From: Bacillus sp. es.034 | Lineage (GTDB): Bacteria; Bacillota; Bacilli; Bacillales; Bacillaceae_B | Direction of reading: 5' to 3' | NCBI RefSeq assembly: GCF_002563655.1 | Contig: NZ_PDIY01000001.1 | Coordinates: 2,764,001-2,828,000 of the forward strand | DNA: 64,000 nt | Shown: in pieces, positions 1,640-45,028 of the stretch | Numbering within the stretch: position 1 is the first letter of the stretch | How the letters are laid out: each line of letters begins with the position of its first letter | Notes under the pieces: generated by a model | Database searches by the model: none | Seen by the model: only the letters and a program-made list of their open reading frames with translations | Told to the model about the DNA's origin: nothing | Program-made: the position numbers and the translations under genes

Positions 1640-2197
1640 TTAAGCTTCGAGCGCCTGCTCTTCTTCAGGCGACTGCTGAAGCTGATATAGATAGAGGGTG
1701 TACAAATCTTTCGGAATCTCATACAGATCATACACGTCTTCTTGAGCATTTAATTGATCATAGAGAGATTTCCTTGATTCATTTGCCTTTACGACATAAG
1801 GAAGCTTCTCTGCAGCCTTTTGTGAACGGGTATTCACCTTTCTGATTCTCATAAAAATGGTTTCCATTCCCAGCTCAAAAAATAACTCGGAAAAGAATGC
1901 ATCCTTAGCCGGCTGGTTATACCCTTTGCCATGAAACGGCTTCCCGATCCATGTACCAAGGAATCCTGCATTTTCCTGGATGTCGAATAAATTAATCGTT
2001 CCGATAGGGTTGCCCCACTCGTCCAAAATCGTCCGGGAAATAAGTTCCCCGCGTTCTTCTGCTTCAATGGTTTGTTTTGTCAGGAAAAGAAGCTCCTCAT
2101 AGGAATACGCCTTCTGACGCACAAAAGGGAAGACATCCGGGTGCACCATCAGGTCATAAAGTTCATGACACTCATGTAATTCACGTTTCTTGATCAT
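1640..2197 (-). CDS. GNAT acetyltransferase (RimJ/RimL type)
   Basis: A 185-residue GNAT-fold N-acetyltransferase. The middle (about residues 60-125) carries the RimL-like acetyl-CoA region: a G-x-I-N-L strand, then GTWIGKPFHGKGYNQ and a later RKVNTRSQKAAEKL helix, where the family recognises a slowed aromatic or asparagine position. The substrate cannot be told from sequence. The ATG is immediately preceded by a 28-base hairpin (2198-2225) that holds the whole Shine-Dalgarno sequence AAGGAGGG. The further leader contains a tRNA-like fold, so expression is probably controlled at translation. It is transcribed in the same direction as the amidohydrolase upstream, 277 bases away. Confidence 0.85.
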   Translation of the reverse strand: MIKKRELHECHELYDLMVHPDVFPFVRQKAYSYEELLFLTKQTIEAEERGELISRTILDEWGNPIGTINLFDIQENAGFLGTWIGKPFHGKGYNQPAKDAFFSELFFELGMETIFMRIRKVNTRSQKAAEKLPYVVKANESRKSLYDQLNAQEDVYDLYEIPKDLYTLYLYQLQQSPEEEQALEA

Positions 2198-2225
2198 AGT
2201 AGACCCTCCTTGAGGGCAGTCTACT
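2198..2225 (-). promoter_or_regulatory. RBS-sequestering hairpin of the acetyltransferase leader
   Basis: Read on the minus strand, AGTAGA - CTG bulge - CCCTC, AAG loop, GAGGG - TCTACT ends directly at the ATG. The AAGGAGGG ribosome binding site occupies the loop and 3' arm, so the folded form should block translation. This is seen directly; the regulatory effect is inferred. Confidence 0.7.
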
Positions 2226-2235
2226 TGCGTACGAT

Positions 2236-2282
2236 CCCACCCTCGAAATTTTTAAATGGTAACTAAAAAATTTCGGGGTGGG
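2236..2282 (-). promoter_or_regulatory. Long hairpin competing with the tRNA-like T-arm
   Basis: CCCACCCTCGAAATTTTT (2236-2253) pairs with AAAAATTTCGGGGTGGG (2266-2282) with a single bulged base, giving about 17 pairs around a 12-base loop. Five bases of its arm (2278-2282) are also one arm of the T-stem of the tRNA-like element, so the two folds exclude each other. There is no U-run after it, so it is not a simple terminator. Confidence 0.65.
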
Positions 2283-2331
2283 AATCGAACCCACTAAGAC
2301 CAGTCAAGAAACTGGTGGCGCACCTTTTGCC
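2278..2331 (-). ncRNA. tRNA-like element in leader RNA (degenerate tRNA or mimic)
   Basis: On the minus strand the order is: a D-arm-like GGC-AAAAGGTGC-GCC (2317-2331, loop contains the usual A and GG), an anticodon-like stem ACCAG/CTGGT with an 8-base loop TTTCTTGA (2299-2316; real tRNAs have 7), a 4-base variable loop, and a perfect T-arm GTGGG-TTCGATT-CCCAC (2278-2294) matching the TTCRANY rule. The flanks give only about 4 of 7 acceptor pairs (TGAAGGG / CCCGAAA) and no CCA. It is therefore not a normal tRNA gene. It could be a tRNA pseudogene or a tRNA mimic acting in cis on the acetyltransferase mRNA. Confidence 0.55.
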
Positions 2332-2474
2332 TTCCCTTCATTACAGTCGCTTAATATATGAATAAATCGCGTCTTTGTAATCGGAAATAAATTATCCATC
2401 TGTATCATATACGAAATATCTCAAAAAGGAAATAGGTAAAATGCTGATTTTTGAAGAAAATTTTTAACAAATTT

Positions 2475-3605
2475 CTACACGTTTTGATAAGCGATTTCCC
2501 CGTTGACGAAAGTCAACATAGGCTTTGCCATAAAGTGAAACGGGTGGTGGCTCCAAAGCACCAGATCGGCATCCTTATTTACTTCGATGCTGCCGATCCG
2601 GTCAGATACACCAAGGTTTCTGGCAGGAGCGATGGTGATCCCTTCCAATGCCTTCTGTTCCTCCAATCCTTCACGCACGGCAATCGCCGCACACATGTTC
2701 AGATACTGGATGGGTGTGTATGGGTGATCGGTTGTAACCGACACTTCGACACCGGCTTCCGTCAATTTCTGATAGGTGATCCAGCTCTTGTTCTTAAGCT
2801 CTACCTTCGAGCGTCTTGTAAACGTCGGACCGACAGAAACTTTTAAGTTCCTGCCTTTCAGCTCATCTGATATGAGGTGACCCTCCGTGCAATGTTCAAT
2901 CCGGAGGTCGAGGTTGAATTCCTCAGCGAAACGCACTGCGGATAAAATATCATCTGCCCTGTGAGCGTGGATCCGAACAGGGATTTCCCGTTTTAAAGCG
3001 GAAACTAAAGGAGCGACTCTCAGTTCCTCTGGCTGGTCACAATATTTAGCAGAGAAAAAGGCTTCCCTGAGCATCCCCATGATCCCCATCCTAGTAATGG
3101 AATCATTGTTTCCATTGCTATGGATTCGTTTCGGATTCTCCCCTAAAGCGATCTTCAATCCGGAGGTTTCTTTGATAAGCATGGACCTGATGTTAGAACC
3201 ATGTGTTTTGATCACCGCTGTGGTACCTCCGATCACATTGGCGCTTCCGGGCATGACATTCACGGTGGTGACGCCATATTTAAGGGCGTCTTTAAAGCCG
3301 GGGTCCAATGGATATACCCCGTCGAAGGCCCTGATATGAGGGGTCATCGGTTCGATGGTTTCATTGGCGTCGTTTCCTGCCCACCCTGTACCTTCGTCGT
3401 AGAGTCCTAAATGAGTGTGGCAATCAATGAATCCTGGGAAAAGGAATTTCCCCTGACAATCGTAAACGGAAGTGTGGTGGAATCCCTCCACGTCATGGGG
3501 GAATATTTGTTGGATTTTTCCGTCTTTTATGAGTAAAGCTCCATTATGAATAGGCTTGGATGTAATGGGATAAATGGTTACGTTTCTTAAAAGTATGGAA
3601 TTCAT
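2475..3605 (-). CDS. Metal-dependent amidohydrolase (imidazolonepropionase-like)
   Basis: A 376-residue amidohydrolase-superfamily TIM barrel with the metal-binding FIDCHTHLG motif (H63, H65), a later IHAHRADD histidine pair, an IEHCTEG histidine and a TTDHP aspartate. A small composite beta domain at both ends (RNVTIYPI..., KDADLVLW) is typical. The cyclic amide or similar substrate is unknown. I chose the ATG at 3605 because AAAGGA lies 6 bases upstream. An ATG at 3620, with TAAGGAA 9 bases before it, would add five residues. It follows the DedA gene on the same strand with no visible terminator between, so they may share a transcript. Confidence 0.85.
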   Translation of the reverse strand: MNSILLRNVTIYPITSKPIHNGALLIKDGKIQQIFPHDVEGFHHTSVYDCQGKFLFPGFIDCHTHLGLYDEGTGWAGNDANETIEPMTPHIRAFDGVYPLDPGFKDALKYGVTTVNVMPGSANVIGGTTAVIKTHGSNIRSMLIKETSGLKIALGENPKRIHSNGNNDSITRMGIMGMLREAFFSAKYCDQPEELRVAPLVSALKREIPVRIHAHRADDILSAVRFAEEFNLDLRIEHCTEGHLISDELKGRNLKVSVGPTFTRRSKVELKNKSWITYQKLTEAGVEVSVTTDHPYTPIQYLNMCAAIAVREGLEEQKALEGITIAPARNLGVSDRIGSIEVNKDADLVLWSHHPFHFMAKPMLTFVNGEIAYQNV

Positions 3606-3668
3606 CTTTTTTCCTTTCATGAGGCTTGTTTCCTTATTATTTTAAACAATTTCCAGTAAAAAAAGAAG

Positions 3669-4268
3669 TTAATCCATCCTTTTATTTCTTCTATTCGAAT
3701 ACATCAGATAAAAAAGGGTTGAAATGACAGCTATTAAACTGAGGGGTTTAATATAGCGCGTCCCGATGACTTCAATATGCTCCCAGTGTGTACCGAGTTC
3801 CATCCCGATGATCATAAACAACAATGTCCAGGGCAGCATGGCTGCAAAAGTGTAAAGAGTGAATGTAGAGAAGGGCATGCGGCTTATGCCGGCGGGTATA
3901 CTGATCGCGTGCCGGACGATCGGTATGAAACGTGCCGTGAAAATGACGATCGTTCCGTGCTTCTCAAACCACTTCTCTGCAGCAAGTATATGCTTTGAAT
4001 AAATAAACAGATATTTTCCGTATTTTTCAAAAAACGGTCTGCCTCCATAGTACCCAAGCCAATAAAGAAATAACTGAGCCACGGTCCCGCCGACGACACC
4101 GCTGATGAAGGCCCCGATAAACGTGAGTTTGCCGGCGGTTACCATGAAGCCTGCATAGCTTAGGACAAGCTCGCTTGGGATGACTTCAATCATGAGTGCG
4201 AGAGAGATTCCCGCATATCCCAAATCCGTTAAAAATGTAAGGATGTGTAAAATCCATTCATGGTTCAT
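3669..4268 (-). CDS. DedA family membrane protein
   Basis: A 199-residue SNARE-associated/DedA (VTT domain) membrane protein. It has an N-terminal conserved acidic site (E28 in MIEVIPSE), a GxxxG-rich re-entrant region (residues 53-75) and the hallmark F-x-A-R-F-I-P-x-x-R near residues 108-118. Some DedA proteins (UptA) flip undecaprenyl phosphate back across the membrane. The gene directly follows the undecaprenyl-diphosphatase gene, 10 bases apart, which fits that role. The family is firm; the undecaprenyl phosphate role is an inference from context. Confidence 0.88.
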   Translation of the reverse strand: MNHEWILHILTFLTDLGYAGISLALMIEVIPSELVLSYAGFMVTAGKLTFIGAFISGVVGGTVAQLFLYWLGYYGGRPFFEKYGKYLFIYSKHILAAEKWFEKHGTIVIFTARFIPIVRHAISIPAGISRMPFSTFTLYTFAAMLPWTLLFMIIGMELGTHWEHIEVIGTRYIKPLSLIAVISTLFYLMYSNRRNKRMD

Positions 4269-4278
4269 ATTTTTCCTC

Positions 4279-5067
4279 CTACATGAATCCTGAGTATTGA
4301 AGAATGAGAATCAAGAGCCCCAAAGCCCAAACGTAATAGGAGAATATTTTCAGAGAGTGCTTCTTTAAGAAATTCACCATGGTCATAATGGCGAAATAGC
4401 CGAATACTGCAGCGCTGACTGTTCCGATGGCTAAACTTGTGAAGGGGATCGCTTCAGCCCCGCCACCGATCATTTCTTTTCCTTGAAGCACGATACCTCC
4501 CAATATGGCAGGGGTAGAAAGGAGAAAGGAGAAATAGGCTGCAGTCTCTCTGTCCAATTTCCTGAATAATCCTGCCGCTATCGTTAAACCGGACCTTGAA
4601 AGGGCGGGGAATATGGCAGCCGCTTGGAAGCTCCCGATCACCAAGGCATCTGTATACGAAAGATCATCCAATTTCTTGTAGCCGTTCTTCACGCCGTCAG
4701 CGACATACATAATGCAGCCTGTCACAAGAAACTCCCAACCGATGGTGGCCCCTGTCTTTGAAATGGCGTCAAAATAGTCTTCGAACATAAACCCTATAAT
4801 CACTGCAGGGATGGTCCCTATGATGAGGATCCAGGATAATTTACTGAATGGATGCCTCAGCATGTATAAAAGTTCCTTCTGATAAACGACAAAGACGGCG
4901 ATCAAAGTACCGATATGAAGCATCGTATCCAGGAATAACCCGGCTTCCTCCAAACCGAAAGCAAGCCTCCCGAGATAGAGATGCCCGGTGCTTGAGATGG
5001 GAAGAAACTCTGTTAACCCTTGTATAACGCCCAGTATAAAGGCCTCGATTTTGTTCATATTCATCAC
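4279..5067 (-). CDS. uppP: Undecaprenyl-diphosphatase (UppP/BacA)
   Basis: Removes one phosphate from undecaprenyl pyrophosphate so that the lipid carrier can be reused for peptidoglycan and teichoic acid synthesis; it often gives bacitracin tolerance. The 262-residue polytopic protein has both family motifs: QGLTEFLPISSTGH (16-29, catalytic E20) and PALSRSG (154-160, R158). AAAGG lies 5 bases before the first of two adjacent ATGs (5067 and 5064). It forms an operon with the DedA gene downstream. Confidence 0.95.
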   Translation of the reverse strand: MMNMNKIEAFILGVIQGLTEFLPISSTGHLYLGRLAFGLEEAGLFLDTMLHIGTLIAVFVVYQKELLYMLRHPFSKLSWILIIGTIPAVIIGFMFEDYFDAISKTGATIGWEFLVTGCIMYVADGVKNGYKKLDDLSYTDALVIGSFQAAAIFPALSRSGLTIAAGLFRKLDRETAAYFSFLLSTPAILGGIVLQGKEMIGGGAEAIPFTSLAIGTVSAAVFGYFAIMTMVNFLKKHSLKIFSYYVWALGLLILILQYSGFM

Positions 5068-11031: not shown

Positions 11032-11145
11032 ATTCCATAATTTCATCACCCTGTATTCTAAAAATTAGGACAAAAATCTTATTTTAGTTCGTCTTACATG
11101 ATTTTATTTATGAAACTATGATAGAATAATGATAATCGAATAGGT

Positions 11146-11290
11146 TTCCTTCGGGGCAGGGTGAAATTCCCTACCGGCGGTGATGAGCAAATGCTCTTAG
11201 TCCGTGACCCGGCTAATACATATTAGACGGTGGATTTGGTGAAACTCCAAAGCCGACAGTGAAAGTCTGGATGGGAGAAGGAACGGCAGC
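11146..11290 (+). promoter_or_regulatory. FMN riboswitch (RFN element)
   Basis: It contains the conserved RFN blocks in order: CTTCGGGGCAGGGTGAAATTCC, CCGGCGGTGAT, AGTCCGTGACCCG, GGTGGATTTGGTGAAACTCC, GCCGACAGT and GGATGGGAGAAGGA. FMN binding is expected to favour the terminator at 11391 and so shut off the rib operon. The identification is by direct motif recognition. Confidence 0.97.
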
Positions 11291-28104: not shown

Positions 28105-28402
28105 CAATCAATTAAATGAGCGAATGGCTTTGACGAAGAGGAGTACCTATAATCGACACTTCAGAGAGCTGGTGGTGGGTGTGAACCAGTGTGATCGGTA
28201 TTAGGGAATGGACTTCTGAGCTTCCAAACCGAAACCTAAGGGGAGTAGGCTTTGGCGAATGTCTTATCGTTACAAAAGACGCGTATTAGAGCATTTTGCT
28301 CCAATACGATTGAGTGGACTGTAAAAAGCAGTCAACAAAGGTGGCACCACGGGTATCCCGTCCTTTCTTTTAATAAGATAAGGATTGGGATGCCTTTTTT
28401 TA
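28105..28402 (+). promoter_or_regulatory. Tryptophan T-box riboswitch, first of two
   Basis: Stem I begins with GAAGAGGAGTAC. The specifier region reads GGAA-TGG-ACTTCTGAGC, giving the Trp codon UGG. The T-box core AAGGTGGCACCACGGGT is at 28338-28354, followed by a terminator pairing ATCCCGTCCTT (28354-28364) with AAGGATTGGGAT (28380-28391) and TTTTTTT. Uncharged tRNA-Trp should stabilise the antiterminator. Confidence 0.93.
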
Positions 28403-28414
28403 TAATTTCATAAT

Positions 28415-28693
28415 GTTAAATCGTTGAATAAGAGGAGTACATTCAAGTGATGCATAACAGGGAGTTAAGGACAGTGAGACCTTAGCATGATAGCTTGTCT
28501 GGAATGGACTTATGAGAGACGATCTGAATGAAGTAGGGTCGTACGGATTTCCACCGTTAACAGGATAGAGTATCGGGTGATAAACCCCGTACTTGAACCA
28601 AGAGGGGATATAAGTATATCCCAATAGAGGTGGCACCGCGGTCAGCATCGTCCTCTATGAACAGTATTTCTGTTCATAGGGGACTTTTTTTTA
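28415..28693 (+). promoter_or_regulatory. Tryptophan T-box riboswitch, second of two
   Basis: A second complete leader: AAGAGGAGTAC at 28430, specifier GGAA-TGG-ACTTATGAG (UGG again), T-box AGAGGTGGCACCGCGG (28626-28641), and a terminator CTATGAACAG / CTGTTCATAG followed by TTTTTTTT. Two T-boxes in series demand two uncharged tRNA-Trp events for full read-through and so sharpen the response. Tandem Trp T-boxes are known before trp operons of the B. cereus group. Confidence 0.93.
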
Positions 28694-28732
28694 TGGACTT
28701 TGTAAAAGGTGAAAGCGAATGGGAGGATATCG

Positions 28733-30130
28733 ATGATGAAGCATCAAGATTTGAACTATGTGGTGAAAGAATTGAATGGAGATATGTACACACCAATATC
28801 ACTCTTTCAATCCCTAAAGGGGAAGAAGAAATTTTTGTTGGAGAGTTCGCTGAAGCACGAACAATCCGGTCGCTATTCTTTTGTGGGAAGCGACCCGTTC
28901 CTCGAATGTAAGGCATATGGAGATAGTGTACAGATTATAAAAACGTCCACTGCTCAAGTAGAGGAACGAATAGGGGACCCGATTGAGATGATTCAAACCC
29001 TTATACCCCACGTTCCTTTAGAAGACGCACCCTTTCCTTTCACAGGTGGAGGGGTTGGATATTTAGGATATGATGTGATCAGACATTACGAGGAAATCGG
29101 TATCACCCCTGATGACGAATTGGAGATGCCGGACATTCATCTCATGTTCTATGAAAAAGTCATCGTCTTTGATCATCTTGAGCATAAAGTATACATCATT
29201 GTCATGAATGAATGGACAGAAGAAATGGAAGTGGATCTTCAGGAAAAAGTGAAAGAAACCGAAGACGAGCTGACAAATGTGTATTTGGACACACACAAAG
29301 AAAAACTGGATCGTCTTTCCTTTCATGCCCGAGCGTCAAAAGATGAATATATGGAGAGAGTGGAAAGAGCGAAGCAGTCGATTCAGGAAGGAGAAATTTT
29401 TCAAGTGGTGCTTTCCCAAAGACTGCAGGCATCCTTTTCCGGAGATCCTTTTACATTCTATAGAGGCTTAAGGCAATCAAATCCGTCACCATATATGTTC
29501 TTCATCGACTTTGAAGAGTACGTCGTATTGGGGGCATCTCCAGAAAGCATGCTGAGGGTACAGGGCAGGGAAATCACAACCAATCCCATTGCCGGTACAA
29601 GACGCAGAGGGGATACCAATGAAGAAGATGGAAAGCTTGAGAGGGAGCTGCTATCGGATGAAAAGGAAATGGCTGAGCATCGAATGCTCGTAGACTTAGG
29701 CAGGAATGATCTGGGAAGGATTTGTGAAATCGGATCCATCCGTTTAACCAAGTACTTGACCATTGAGAGGTATAAATACGTGATGCACATCGTTTCAGAG
29801 GTGAAGGGTAAATTGAAGGAAGAAGTAACTCCCCTTGAAGCATTGACAGGCTGTTTGCCTGCAGGAACAGTGAGCGGGGCACCGAAGATCAGGGCCATGC
29901 AGATCATCAATGATCTTGAAACGATAAAACGTGGTGTATACTCAGGGGCTGTCGGATATATCGGGGTCAACGGGAATCTCGACTTTGCCCTGGCGATCCG
30001 CACAATGGTCGTGAAAGATGGCGTTGCCAATGTTCAAGCAGGGGCAGGCATCGTGTATGATTCAGATCCTGAATCTGAGTATGAAGAAACGCTGAATAAA
30101 GCGAAATCATTATTGGAGGTGACGGGATGA
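28733..30130 (+). CDS. trpE: Anthranilate synthase component I
   Basis: The first committed step of tryptophan synthesis: chorismate plus ammonia to anthranilate. 465 residues. The N-terminal feedback domain has the LLES-x-RYSF tryptophan-site motif (LLESSLKHEQSGRYSFVG, residues ~35-52). The catalytic domain (from ~200) has QVVLSQRL, IAGTRRRG and the GCLPAGTVSGAPKIRA signature. The ATG at 28733 follows GGGAGG by six bases. The stop overlaps the trpG start (ATGA). Confidence 0.96.
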   Translation: MMKHQDLNYVVKELNGDMYTPISLFQSLKGKKKFLLESSLKHEQSGRYSFVGSDPFLECKAYGDSVQIIKTSTAQVEERIGDPIEMIQTLIPHVPLEDAPFPFTGGGVGYLGYDVIRHYEEIGITPDDELEMPDIHLMFYEKVIVFDHLEHKVYIIVMNEWTEEMEVDLQEKVKETEDELTNVYLDTHKEKLDRLSFHARASKDEYMERVERAKQSIQEGEIFQVVLSQRLQASFSGDPFTFYRGLRQSNPSPYMFFIDFEEYVVLGASPESMLRVQGREITTNPIAGTRRRGDTNEEDGKLERELLSDEKEMAEHRMLVDLGRNDLGRICEIGSIRLTKYLTIERYKYVMHIVSEVKGKLKEEVTPLEALTGCLPAGTVSGAPKIRAMQIINDLETIKRGVYSGAVGYIGVNGNLDFALAIRTMVVKDGVANVQAGAGIVYDSDPESEYEETLNKAKSLLEVTG

Positions 30131-36223: not shown

Positions 36224-36530
36224 AATCTACTTTGCGTTGATGAGAAGAGTACATAGTGAAAGCCCCTTATCAGAGAGCTTCGGAAGCTGAAAAGAAGCAG
36301 GGAGATTCCCTATGGAAAATGGTCTCGGAGCATTCTACTCGAACCAATGGGGTGTAGGGTAGAACGGGGTTGGGCGTCCGTTATCACTGCCACGGTATAA
36401 GGGCTTATATTGCTCCGTACTTGTTGAGGTAGTCTTGCGTGAGCAAGCTATAAACTAAGGTGGTACCACGAGCTTAACCCCTCGTCCTTGGATGTCTTTC
36501 GACATCCAGAGGACGAGGGGTTTTTATTTA
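36224..36530 (+). promoter_or_regulatory. Methionine T-box riboswitch
   Basis: Starts GATGAGAAGAGTAC. The specifier region GAAA-ATG-GTCTCGGAGC aligns with the two Trp leaders and gives AUG. The T-box AAGGTGGTACCACGAG is near 36457-36472. The terminator (36478-36530) pairs CCCCTCGTCC and TGGATGTC with their complements, followed by TTTTTATTT. All parts look intact although the gene it serves is broken. Confidence 0.93.
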
Positions 36531-44592: not shown

Positions 44593-44630
44593 GTTAGACT
44601 ATATTTTTTACAATTAGACCCATTCCCACC

Positions 44631-44659
44631 TTGAGCTTTGGAGGGGAATCTGTTATAGT
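44631..44659 (+). promoter_or_regulatory. Sigma-A promoter of the cold-shock gene
   Basis: TTGAGC (44631-44636), 17-base spacer, TATAGT (44654-44659). It leaves a roughly 110-base 5' untranslated leader, typical of csp genes with cold-responsive folding. Confidence 0.75.
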
Positions 44660-44777
44660 AAAGATAATTATTTTTGTTCGATTAATATCCATGATTGAAA
44701 AATATTCATCTTGAATTTTAATCAGAGCAGGAATATAAATATTTTTACGTGCAACTGCACTAGGAGGTACATGTTTT

Positions 44778-44975
44778 ATGTTACAAGGTAAAGTTAAATG
44801 GTTTAACGCAGAAAAAGGTTTCGGTTTCATCGAAGTTGAAGGTCAAGATGATGTTTTTGTTCACTTCTCCGCTATCCAAGGTGAAGGATACAAATCATTA
44901 GAAGAAGGTCAAGATGTTACATTTGAAATCGTTGAAGGCGCTCGTGGACCACAAGCGGCAAACGTTCAAAAGTAA
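44778..44975 (+). CDS. Cold-shock protein
   Basis: A 65-residue single-domain RNA chaperone of the CspA/CspB family, with RNP1 KGFGFIEV (13-20) and RNP2 DVFVHFSAI (25-33) both complete. GGAGGT lies before the ATG. The long leader (44666-44777) fits cold-stabilised expression. Codon use is of the highly expressed type (GGT, GAA, AAA, GTT). Which of the several Bacillus csp paralogues it is cannot be said. Confidence 0.95.
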
Positions 44976-44994
44976 TTCAATCGTATAATTTCAA

Positions 44995-45028
44995 GCAGGG
45001 TACGTCAGCTGACGTACCCTGCTTTTTT
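44995..45028 (+). terminator. csp terminator
   Basis: A 28-base perfect palindrome, GCAGGGTACGTCAG / CTGACGTACCCTGC, directly followed by TTTTTT. Confidence 0.95.

Follow-up and report, generated by a model that had tools for sequence, protein, structure and literature searches.

A conserved tRNA-like leader RNA ahead of a GNAT acetyltransferase gene in Bacillus and its relatives, a candidate riboswitch-like regulator

The tRNA-derived RNAs akin to the leader described here include tRNA-Other of B. cereus and the tRNA-mimicking thrS operator of E. coli. The closest precedent that we found is the yjdF riboswitch, an RNA that binds azaaromatic compounds, which the available parts of one report present as a translational ON switch with a tRNA-like fold, the contact between its D-loop and T-loop being supported by small-angle scattering and mutants (PMC9142559). 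According to the same parts, activating ligands stabilise the tRNA-like fold over a state in which the Shine-Dalgarno sequence (SD) is masked; in this off state the masking is done by strands of the T-arm equivalent, with 9-11 nt of P4 pairing directly with the SD, and instances of acetyltransferases under yjdF control are mentioned (PMC9142559). A crystal structure of another yjdF RNA has, in the available part of its description, a core pocket built from the T-loop-like L2b and joining regions (PMC10987639). The original prediction for the present locus had stated that no switch with this layout was described; since yjdF is already known as a switch of translation whose fold resembles tRNA, that statement needs correcting.

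The window, that is, the whole 64,000-nucleotide stretch of Bacillus sp. es.034 DNA that was analysed, carries on its minus strand a GNAT acetyltransferase gene of 185 aa (1640-2197; Pfam Acetyltransf_3, E 2.5e-12), with its ATG at 2195-2197 and a structured leader, also on the minus strand, ahead of it. Judging from its letters, a -10-like TATGAT at 2404-2409 is presumed to belong to the leader's own promoter; of 193 leaders, 141 have a TATNATR motif no more than 140 nt upstream of the core, against a mean fraction of 0.38 after shuffling. The tRNA-like domain (2275-2336) is made up of a 3-bp acceptor, a D-arm (2317-2331) that is conserved and has GG in its loop, an anticodon-like arm (2299-2316) whose loop is free in sequence and length, a 4-nt variable linker and a perfect T-arm, GTGGG-TTCGATT-CCCAC (2278-2294). 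The acceptor, which pairs GGG (2334-2336) with CCC (2275-2277), had been absent from the original prediction. As an alternative to the T-arm and acceptor, a long hairpin of 17 pairs with one bulged A (2236-2282) can use five bases of the T-stem (2278-2282); it contains an AU-rich hairpin (2245-2274) and the competitor strand GAGGGTGGG (2236-2244). Between this hairpin and the gene lie GCCCTC (2212-2217), a target common to the competitor strand and the SD, and the SD itself, AGGAGGG (2204-2210), in a masking hairpin over the ribosome-binding site (RBS; 2198-2225) that adjoins the ATG. A check of the sequence placed the D-arm, anticodon-like arm, T-arm, 17-pair hairpin and RBS hairpin exactly where they had been predicted. 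The fold of the region 2190-2420 had a stability z-score of -4.28, and none of 200 shuffles was equally stable.

On comparative grounds, the leader is a conserved RNA and not a chance fold. We aligned 122 of 124 distinct tRNA-like domains, leaving out two with very long anticodon-like arms. In this alignment (n = 122), 97.9% of the cells were paired and 27 columns were invariant, and two-sided changes were seen in 8 of 17 pairs (80 cells); none of 500 column shuffles came up to this on any measure, and covariation on 71 relatives was likewise above all 500 column shuffles, bearing in mind that the shuffles of both sets, like the partner-swap controls below, ignore relatedness. The T-stem was 100% paired with two-sided changes in three of its five pairs, and the anticodon-like stem was 95.2% paired with such changes in five of six. 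The D-arm was 99.7% paired and almost invariant; since there is hardly any variation in the D-stem and the acceptor, the case for these two is one of conservation alone. All 122 domains have GG in the D-loop and AA in the first linker, and the T-loop reads UUCGAUU in 121 and UUCAAUU in one. The D-loop GG and the T-loop are the letters expected of a tRNA elbow, and they suggest a putative contact between the loops. Covariation of the AU hairpin was found on the 71 relatives. The prediction of a leader combining a tRNA mimic with competing hairpins is supported.

Outside the core, the leaders are less uniform. By eye, two loci (L215 and L219) keep the core with the AU hairpin and GAGGGTGG missing or replaced; in three more (L247-L249), the strand beside the acceptor is altered, and a longer, upstream-extended acceptor could form. 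A conserved aptamer-like core joined to variable expression platforms is a general trait of riboswitches and is found here. Six loci (L021, L025, L120, L234, L236 and L241) have a lineage-specific stem ending just 5' of the acceptor, GGCAAAG/CTTTGCC in L120, which is perhaps an accessory stem. We rejected it as a part of the core, as it occurs in some lineages only and exceeded the 95% point of shuffles in 15 of 144 cases, with about seven expected.

The likeness to tRNA lies in the cloverleaf, the canonical T-loop and the D-loop GG. The domain departs from a tRNA gene in its acceptor, which has 3 bp instead of 7 bp and no CCA at its end, in the varying length of the anticodon-like loop and in its place in an mRNA leader ahead of one gene. 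In an Rfam covariance search for a known class, as suggested with the original prediction, no family reached its gathering score at the leader. The tRNA model (RF00005) stayed below its cutoff of 29 with 23.1 bits at the window's leader, and a microRNA model, also sub-threshold, fitted the long hairpin. ARAGORN called no tRNA in the window, none of 18 related loci matched the Rfam tRNA model at E<=0.5, and the sole tRNA-type match at L027 was to tRNA-Sec, with 16.9 bits. When the own genome's tRNAs were compared in search of a parent (34 distinct sequences, taken from 30 of 80 tRNA matches and their surroundings), tRNA-His came first (48 matches, gapped, to the 61-nt consensus) and tRNA-Trp second, and no clear parent emerged.

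By the tests made, the leader is not a member of the yjdF class. Neither of two leaders (window 2195-2400 and L027 1340-1510) had a match to the yjdF model at E<=10, and none of the 18 loci had one at E<=0.5. The extended, purine-rich J1/2 that forms the ligand pocket of yjdF, as described in the parts of the reports available, is absent, the present leader having only AA in 122 of 122 domains; nor is the core pocket layout in the available part of PMC10987639 seen here. As far as the same parts describe yjdF, the present leader also differs in having a separate 3' competitor strand and a GCCCTC relay instead of direct pairing with the SD, and the usual gene of yjdF is not the GNAT gene. In mechanism, on this evidence, the leader would nevertheless work like the yjdF riboswitch.

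We then turn to the distribution of the RNA and its linkage to the GNAT gene. GNAT orthologues occurred in 38 of the 41 genomes of a first sample, counting a weak match only in G037, and by eye the leader was present in the 30 GNAT loci next retrieved. A T-arm pattern without the D-arm matched 184 of 299 genomes of the order, and its reversed control matched none. With a covariance model, R1, built on 71 of the 82 distinct cores known by then, the RNA was detected at E<=1e-7 in 225 of the order's 299 sampled genomes, and GNAT was detected at E<=1e-20 in 229 of the same 299. All 225 RNA-positive genomes were also GNAT-positive; the four GNAT-positive, RNA-negative genomes (G052, G094, G171 and G253) have GNAT loci without the core, and G204 holds a second GNAT copy (L211) that is without a leader. 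R1 had a single match in the window's own genome. In a class-level R1 search of 299 genomes, 175 had matches at E<=0.01. We did not accept R1 matches of 43.6 bits or less as members: all eight that were turned into loci (L123-L130) are ordinary tRNA genes, as in L129, where the match at 373-474 of the locus lies on tRNA-Gly.

The best 80 of 300 named loci, which include Rossellomorea, Neobacillus, Cytobacillus and Mesobacillus, had the core in 80 of 80 cases, 130-168 nt ahead of the start codon. Beyond the order, the RNA was found in 30 of 81 genomes of a family of another order (f49). Across the phylum, where 299 genomes were searched with an exact pattern, it matched four, of which three belong to the order and one to f49; the same pattern was without a match in viral contigs. 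The core was searched by a 20-base pattern with four substitutions allowed, and this pattern itself makes the core counts favour a conserved D-arm; 236 core matches yielded 194 distinct leaders with a GNAT gene behind and two matches without one. One of the two is a chance match inside L134. The other, L067 (contig 23 of G095), is a third, intact leader of its genome with no GNAT gene behind; as the GNAT genes of G095 are all elsewhere, namely two close genes each with its own leader (L065 and L066) and a 37% relative on another contig, L067 is possibly a leader whose gene has been lost. A copy of leader and gene also resides on a large Cytobacillus spongiae plasmid, the feature table of which is blank at the leader. 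GNAT relatives of 46-50% identity in genus g29 (L217, L218 and L220) have no leader and provide a natural outgroup for dating the gain of the switch.

The competing pairings recur across the leaders, in counts that are partly due to chance because the best helices were counted: the competitor GAGGGTGG can form a helix of 6 bp or more with CCCACCCC, the 3' strand of T-arm and acceptor, in 148 of 193 leaders and with GCCCTC in 173, and GCCCTC and the SD can form one of 4 bp or more in 169. Competitor and target are matched to each other within leaders. For 165 distinct pairs, their own combinations scored 16.88 as against 15.41 (sd 0.135) for swapped partners, and none of 100 permutations was as high, which supports the prediction that the competitor's AGGG pairs with the CCCT by which the SD would otherwise be masked. 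The same comparison did not show covariation between T-strand and competitor (own 16.25, swapped 16.11, highest of 200 permutations 16.33), and in L238 and L240 this pairing is down to 2 bp.

When the tRNA-like state or the long hairpin was forced in silico, SD accessibility was greater by more than 0.2 in the tRNA-like state in 102 of 189 leaders and smaller by as much in none, five of the 194 leaders having been skipped for a short AU hairpin. In 114 non-redundant leaders, accessibility in the ON minus the OFF state exceeded 0.2 in 69 and showed the reverse in none; in the control, with the stretch from competitor to SD shuffled by single bases, the numbers were 92 versus 64 of 570. A translational switch would fit the predicted pairings and SD accessibilities, and the fit is weak for the window's own leader, where the predicted gain is small (0.49 vs 0.41) because a very stable local RBS hairpin wins in both states. 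In nearest-neighbour calculations for 183 of the 194 leaders, the tRNA-like state lay on average 7.2 kcal/mol above the energy minimum, within 2 kcal/mol of it in 11 of 183 and 14.1 kcal/mol above it in the window's leader, which means that the ON state would need tertiary contacts, a ligand, a protein or folding during transcription. A run of at least five consecutive U within the last 14 nt was present in 31 of 194 leaders; with this run behind it (for example, by eye, in L026 and L042), the masking hairpin may double as a terminator in that minority.

Together, these comparisons among related sequences show that the leader is conserved and closely linked to the gene, that its anticodon-like arm, T-arm and AU hairpin covary, and that competitor and target are matched. 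The leader is probably an unclassified cis-regulatory RNA of a riboswitch-like kind that uses a tRNA-like, short-acceptor cloverleaf as its sensor. We infer the direction of the switch, the invasion of the T-arm and the existence and nature of a ligand, as follows. A small molecule bound in the core or elbow, or a tRNA-binding protein, would stabilise the tRNA-like fold. T-arm and acceptor would then hold CCCACCCC, and the freed competitor GAGGGTGG would pair with GCCCTC and expose the SD of the GNAT gene (ON). If the fold is not stabilised, the competitor would lengthen the AU hairpin at the expense of the acceptor and T-arm, leaving GCCCTC to mask the SD (OFF); in the minority of leaders in which a U-run follows the masking hairpin, transcription might stop as well. 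The RNA would then be a second, apparently unrelated leader with a tRNA-like sensor beside yjdF, with elbow loops near-invariant across many families. As it precedes one uncharacterised GNAT in 225 of 299 genomes, the ligand could be sought by reporter screens, and would point to the role of the GNAT enzyme.

A tentative alternative to a small-molecule switch is that a tRNA-handling protein, for example a T-loop modification enzyme (TruB or TrmFO), RNase P, RNase Z or EF-Tu, reads the tRNA-like domain, the leader reporting the amount of that protein not occupied by real tRNA. The pattern of conservation fits such a reader, in that the elbow loops are conserved (UUCGAUU in the T-loop of 121 of 122 domains) and the anticodon-like loop is free, and elbows are bound by several proteins and RNAs, as stated in the available part of PMC4810234. 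However, an acceptor of just 3 bp and the absence of a CCA end fit it less well, as do the two linkers, since neither the AA of the first nor the UCUA found in most variable linkers has the usual letters of tRNA. Rather doubtful, in turn, is the broader proposal that a domesticated tRNA fold serves an mRNA switch as sensor of the state of the tRNA machinery and so sets the dose of the acetyltransferase; what is sensed might be, for example, unoccupied enzyme that modifies T-loops, or real tRNA competing for a site that binds tRNA. If true, the leader would monitor tRNA metabolism through a mimic in cis and so mirror the T-box. The leader also makes it testable whether tRNA folds in cis are general regulators of bacterial mRNAs.

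It is unlikely that the GNAT protein, or acetylation by it, acts on its own tRNA-like leader. The pairing of one RNA with one gene would suit such autoregulation, all but two of the 236 core matches preceding GNAT, but binding to the tRNA-like fold would, in the scheme proposed above, raise expression and not lower it, and GNAT relatives without the leader exist. The protein itself has no NCBIfam family at E<=0.001 and no PADLOC assignment. Against the PDB, its single sequence gave one weak match and its profile four, to a RimJ/RimL-like protein, MccE and two other GNATs. Its AlphaFold model is poor (mean pLDDT 68.3), and Foldseek on this weak model returned a mix of RimL-like, FdhC, SpeG and MccE structures, none of them titled RNA acetylase. 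With NCBIfam and PADLOC empty and the PDB and Foldseek matches weak and mixed, we abandoned assignment of a substrate by homology. The neighbouring genes suggest a cell-envelope setting for GNAT in these genera. An amidohydrolase gene (2475-3620, minus strand) lies upstream in the window, followed by genes for a VTT/DedA protein (3669-4268, minus strand) and, by eye, a UppP-like protein (4279-5067, minus strand); a MurG-like glycosyltransferase gene is at 44-601 on the plus strand. An amidohydrolase is upstream of GNAT in 16 of 20 named loci, with an SDR/RecX-like pair (named by eye) in other loci, a MurG-like gene is nearby in the window and in the two f49 loci checked, and the same kinds of gene are annotated around GNAT on the Cytobacillus spongiae plasmid.

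A constitutive role, in which the tRNA-like fold enhances translation or stabilises the mRNA and senses nothing, seems improbable to a like degree. With authentic tRNAs placed ahead of an SD, in vitro translation rose 2- to 6.3-fold, according to the available part of PMC9142559; such a role, however, leaves the matched competitor and target strands unexplained. Very little favours control of the gene by a small upstream ORF starting in the D-loop with ATG or TTG behind GGGAAGG: of 115 distinct segments (four off-pattern leaders left out), 111 have ATG or TTG as the codon ahead of the D-loop GTG, but this codon is AAG in the window and its nearest relatives, and we rejected the ORF since its frame relative to the TAG of the variable linker varies, the three phases occurring in 46, 34 and 35 of the 115. 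A T-box leader or remnant that binds real tRNA is hardly credible: in the window and its near relatives, AGGGTGGGATCGTACG is similar to the core of the T-box, and AGGGTGG letters in many members, the leader position and the tie to tRNA shape are T-box-like, but neither window 2195-2400 nor L027 1340-1510 matched RF00230 at E<=10, although three T-boxes were detected by this tool at other places in the window, the competitor letters vary among relatives (GAGGACAG, GAGCGGGG, GAGGGGGC and AGGGACCG), the originally predicted resemblance being lost in the first two and the last, AGGGTGG is accounted for by complementarity to the T-arm, and here the leader RNA is itself tRNA-like.

A survey of 2017 reportedly listed 224 candidate RNAs. 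In the literature covered, we found no tRNA-like leader before a GNAT gene, an earlier listing being possible; the available parts of PMC8632094, PMC11109978, PMC6429828, PMC2864571, PMC2965389 and PMC10043782 contain none. The window also holds other leader RNAs, all on the plus strand and above their Rfam cutoffs. Two tandem T-box leaders (28121-28368 and 28415-28658) precede, by eye, an anthranilate-synthase-like gene (28709-30130) and then a glutamine-amidotransferase-like gene, an arrangement that is probably ordinary for Bacillales. A third T-box lies at 36228-36492, an FMN riboswitch at 11143-11286 and a cspA thermoregulator at 44619-45025.
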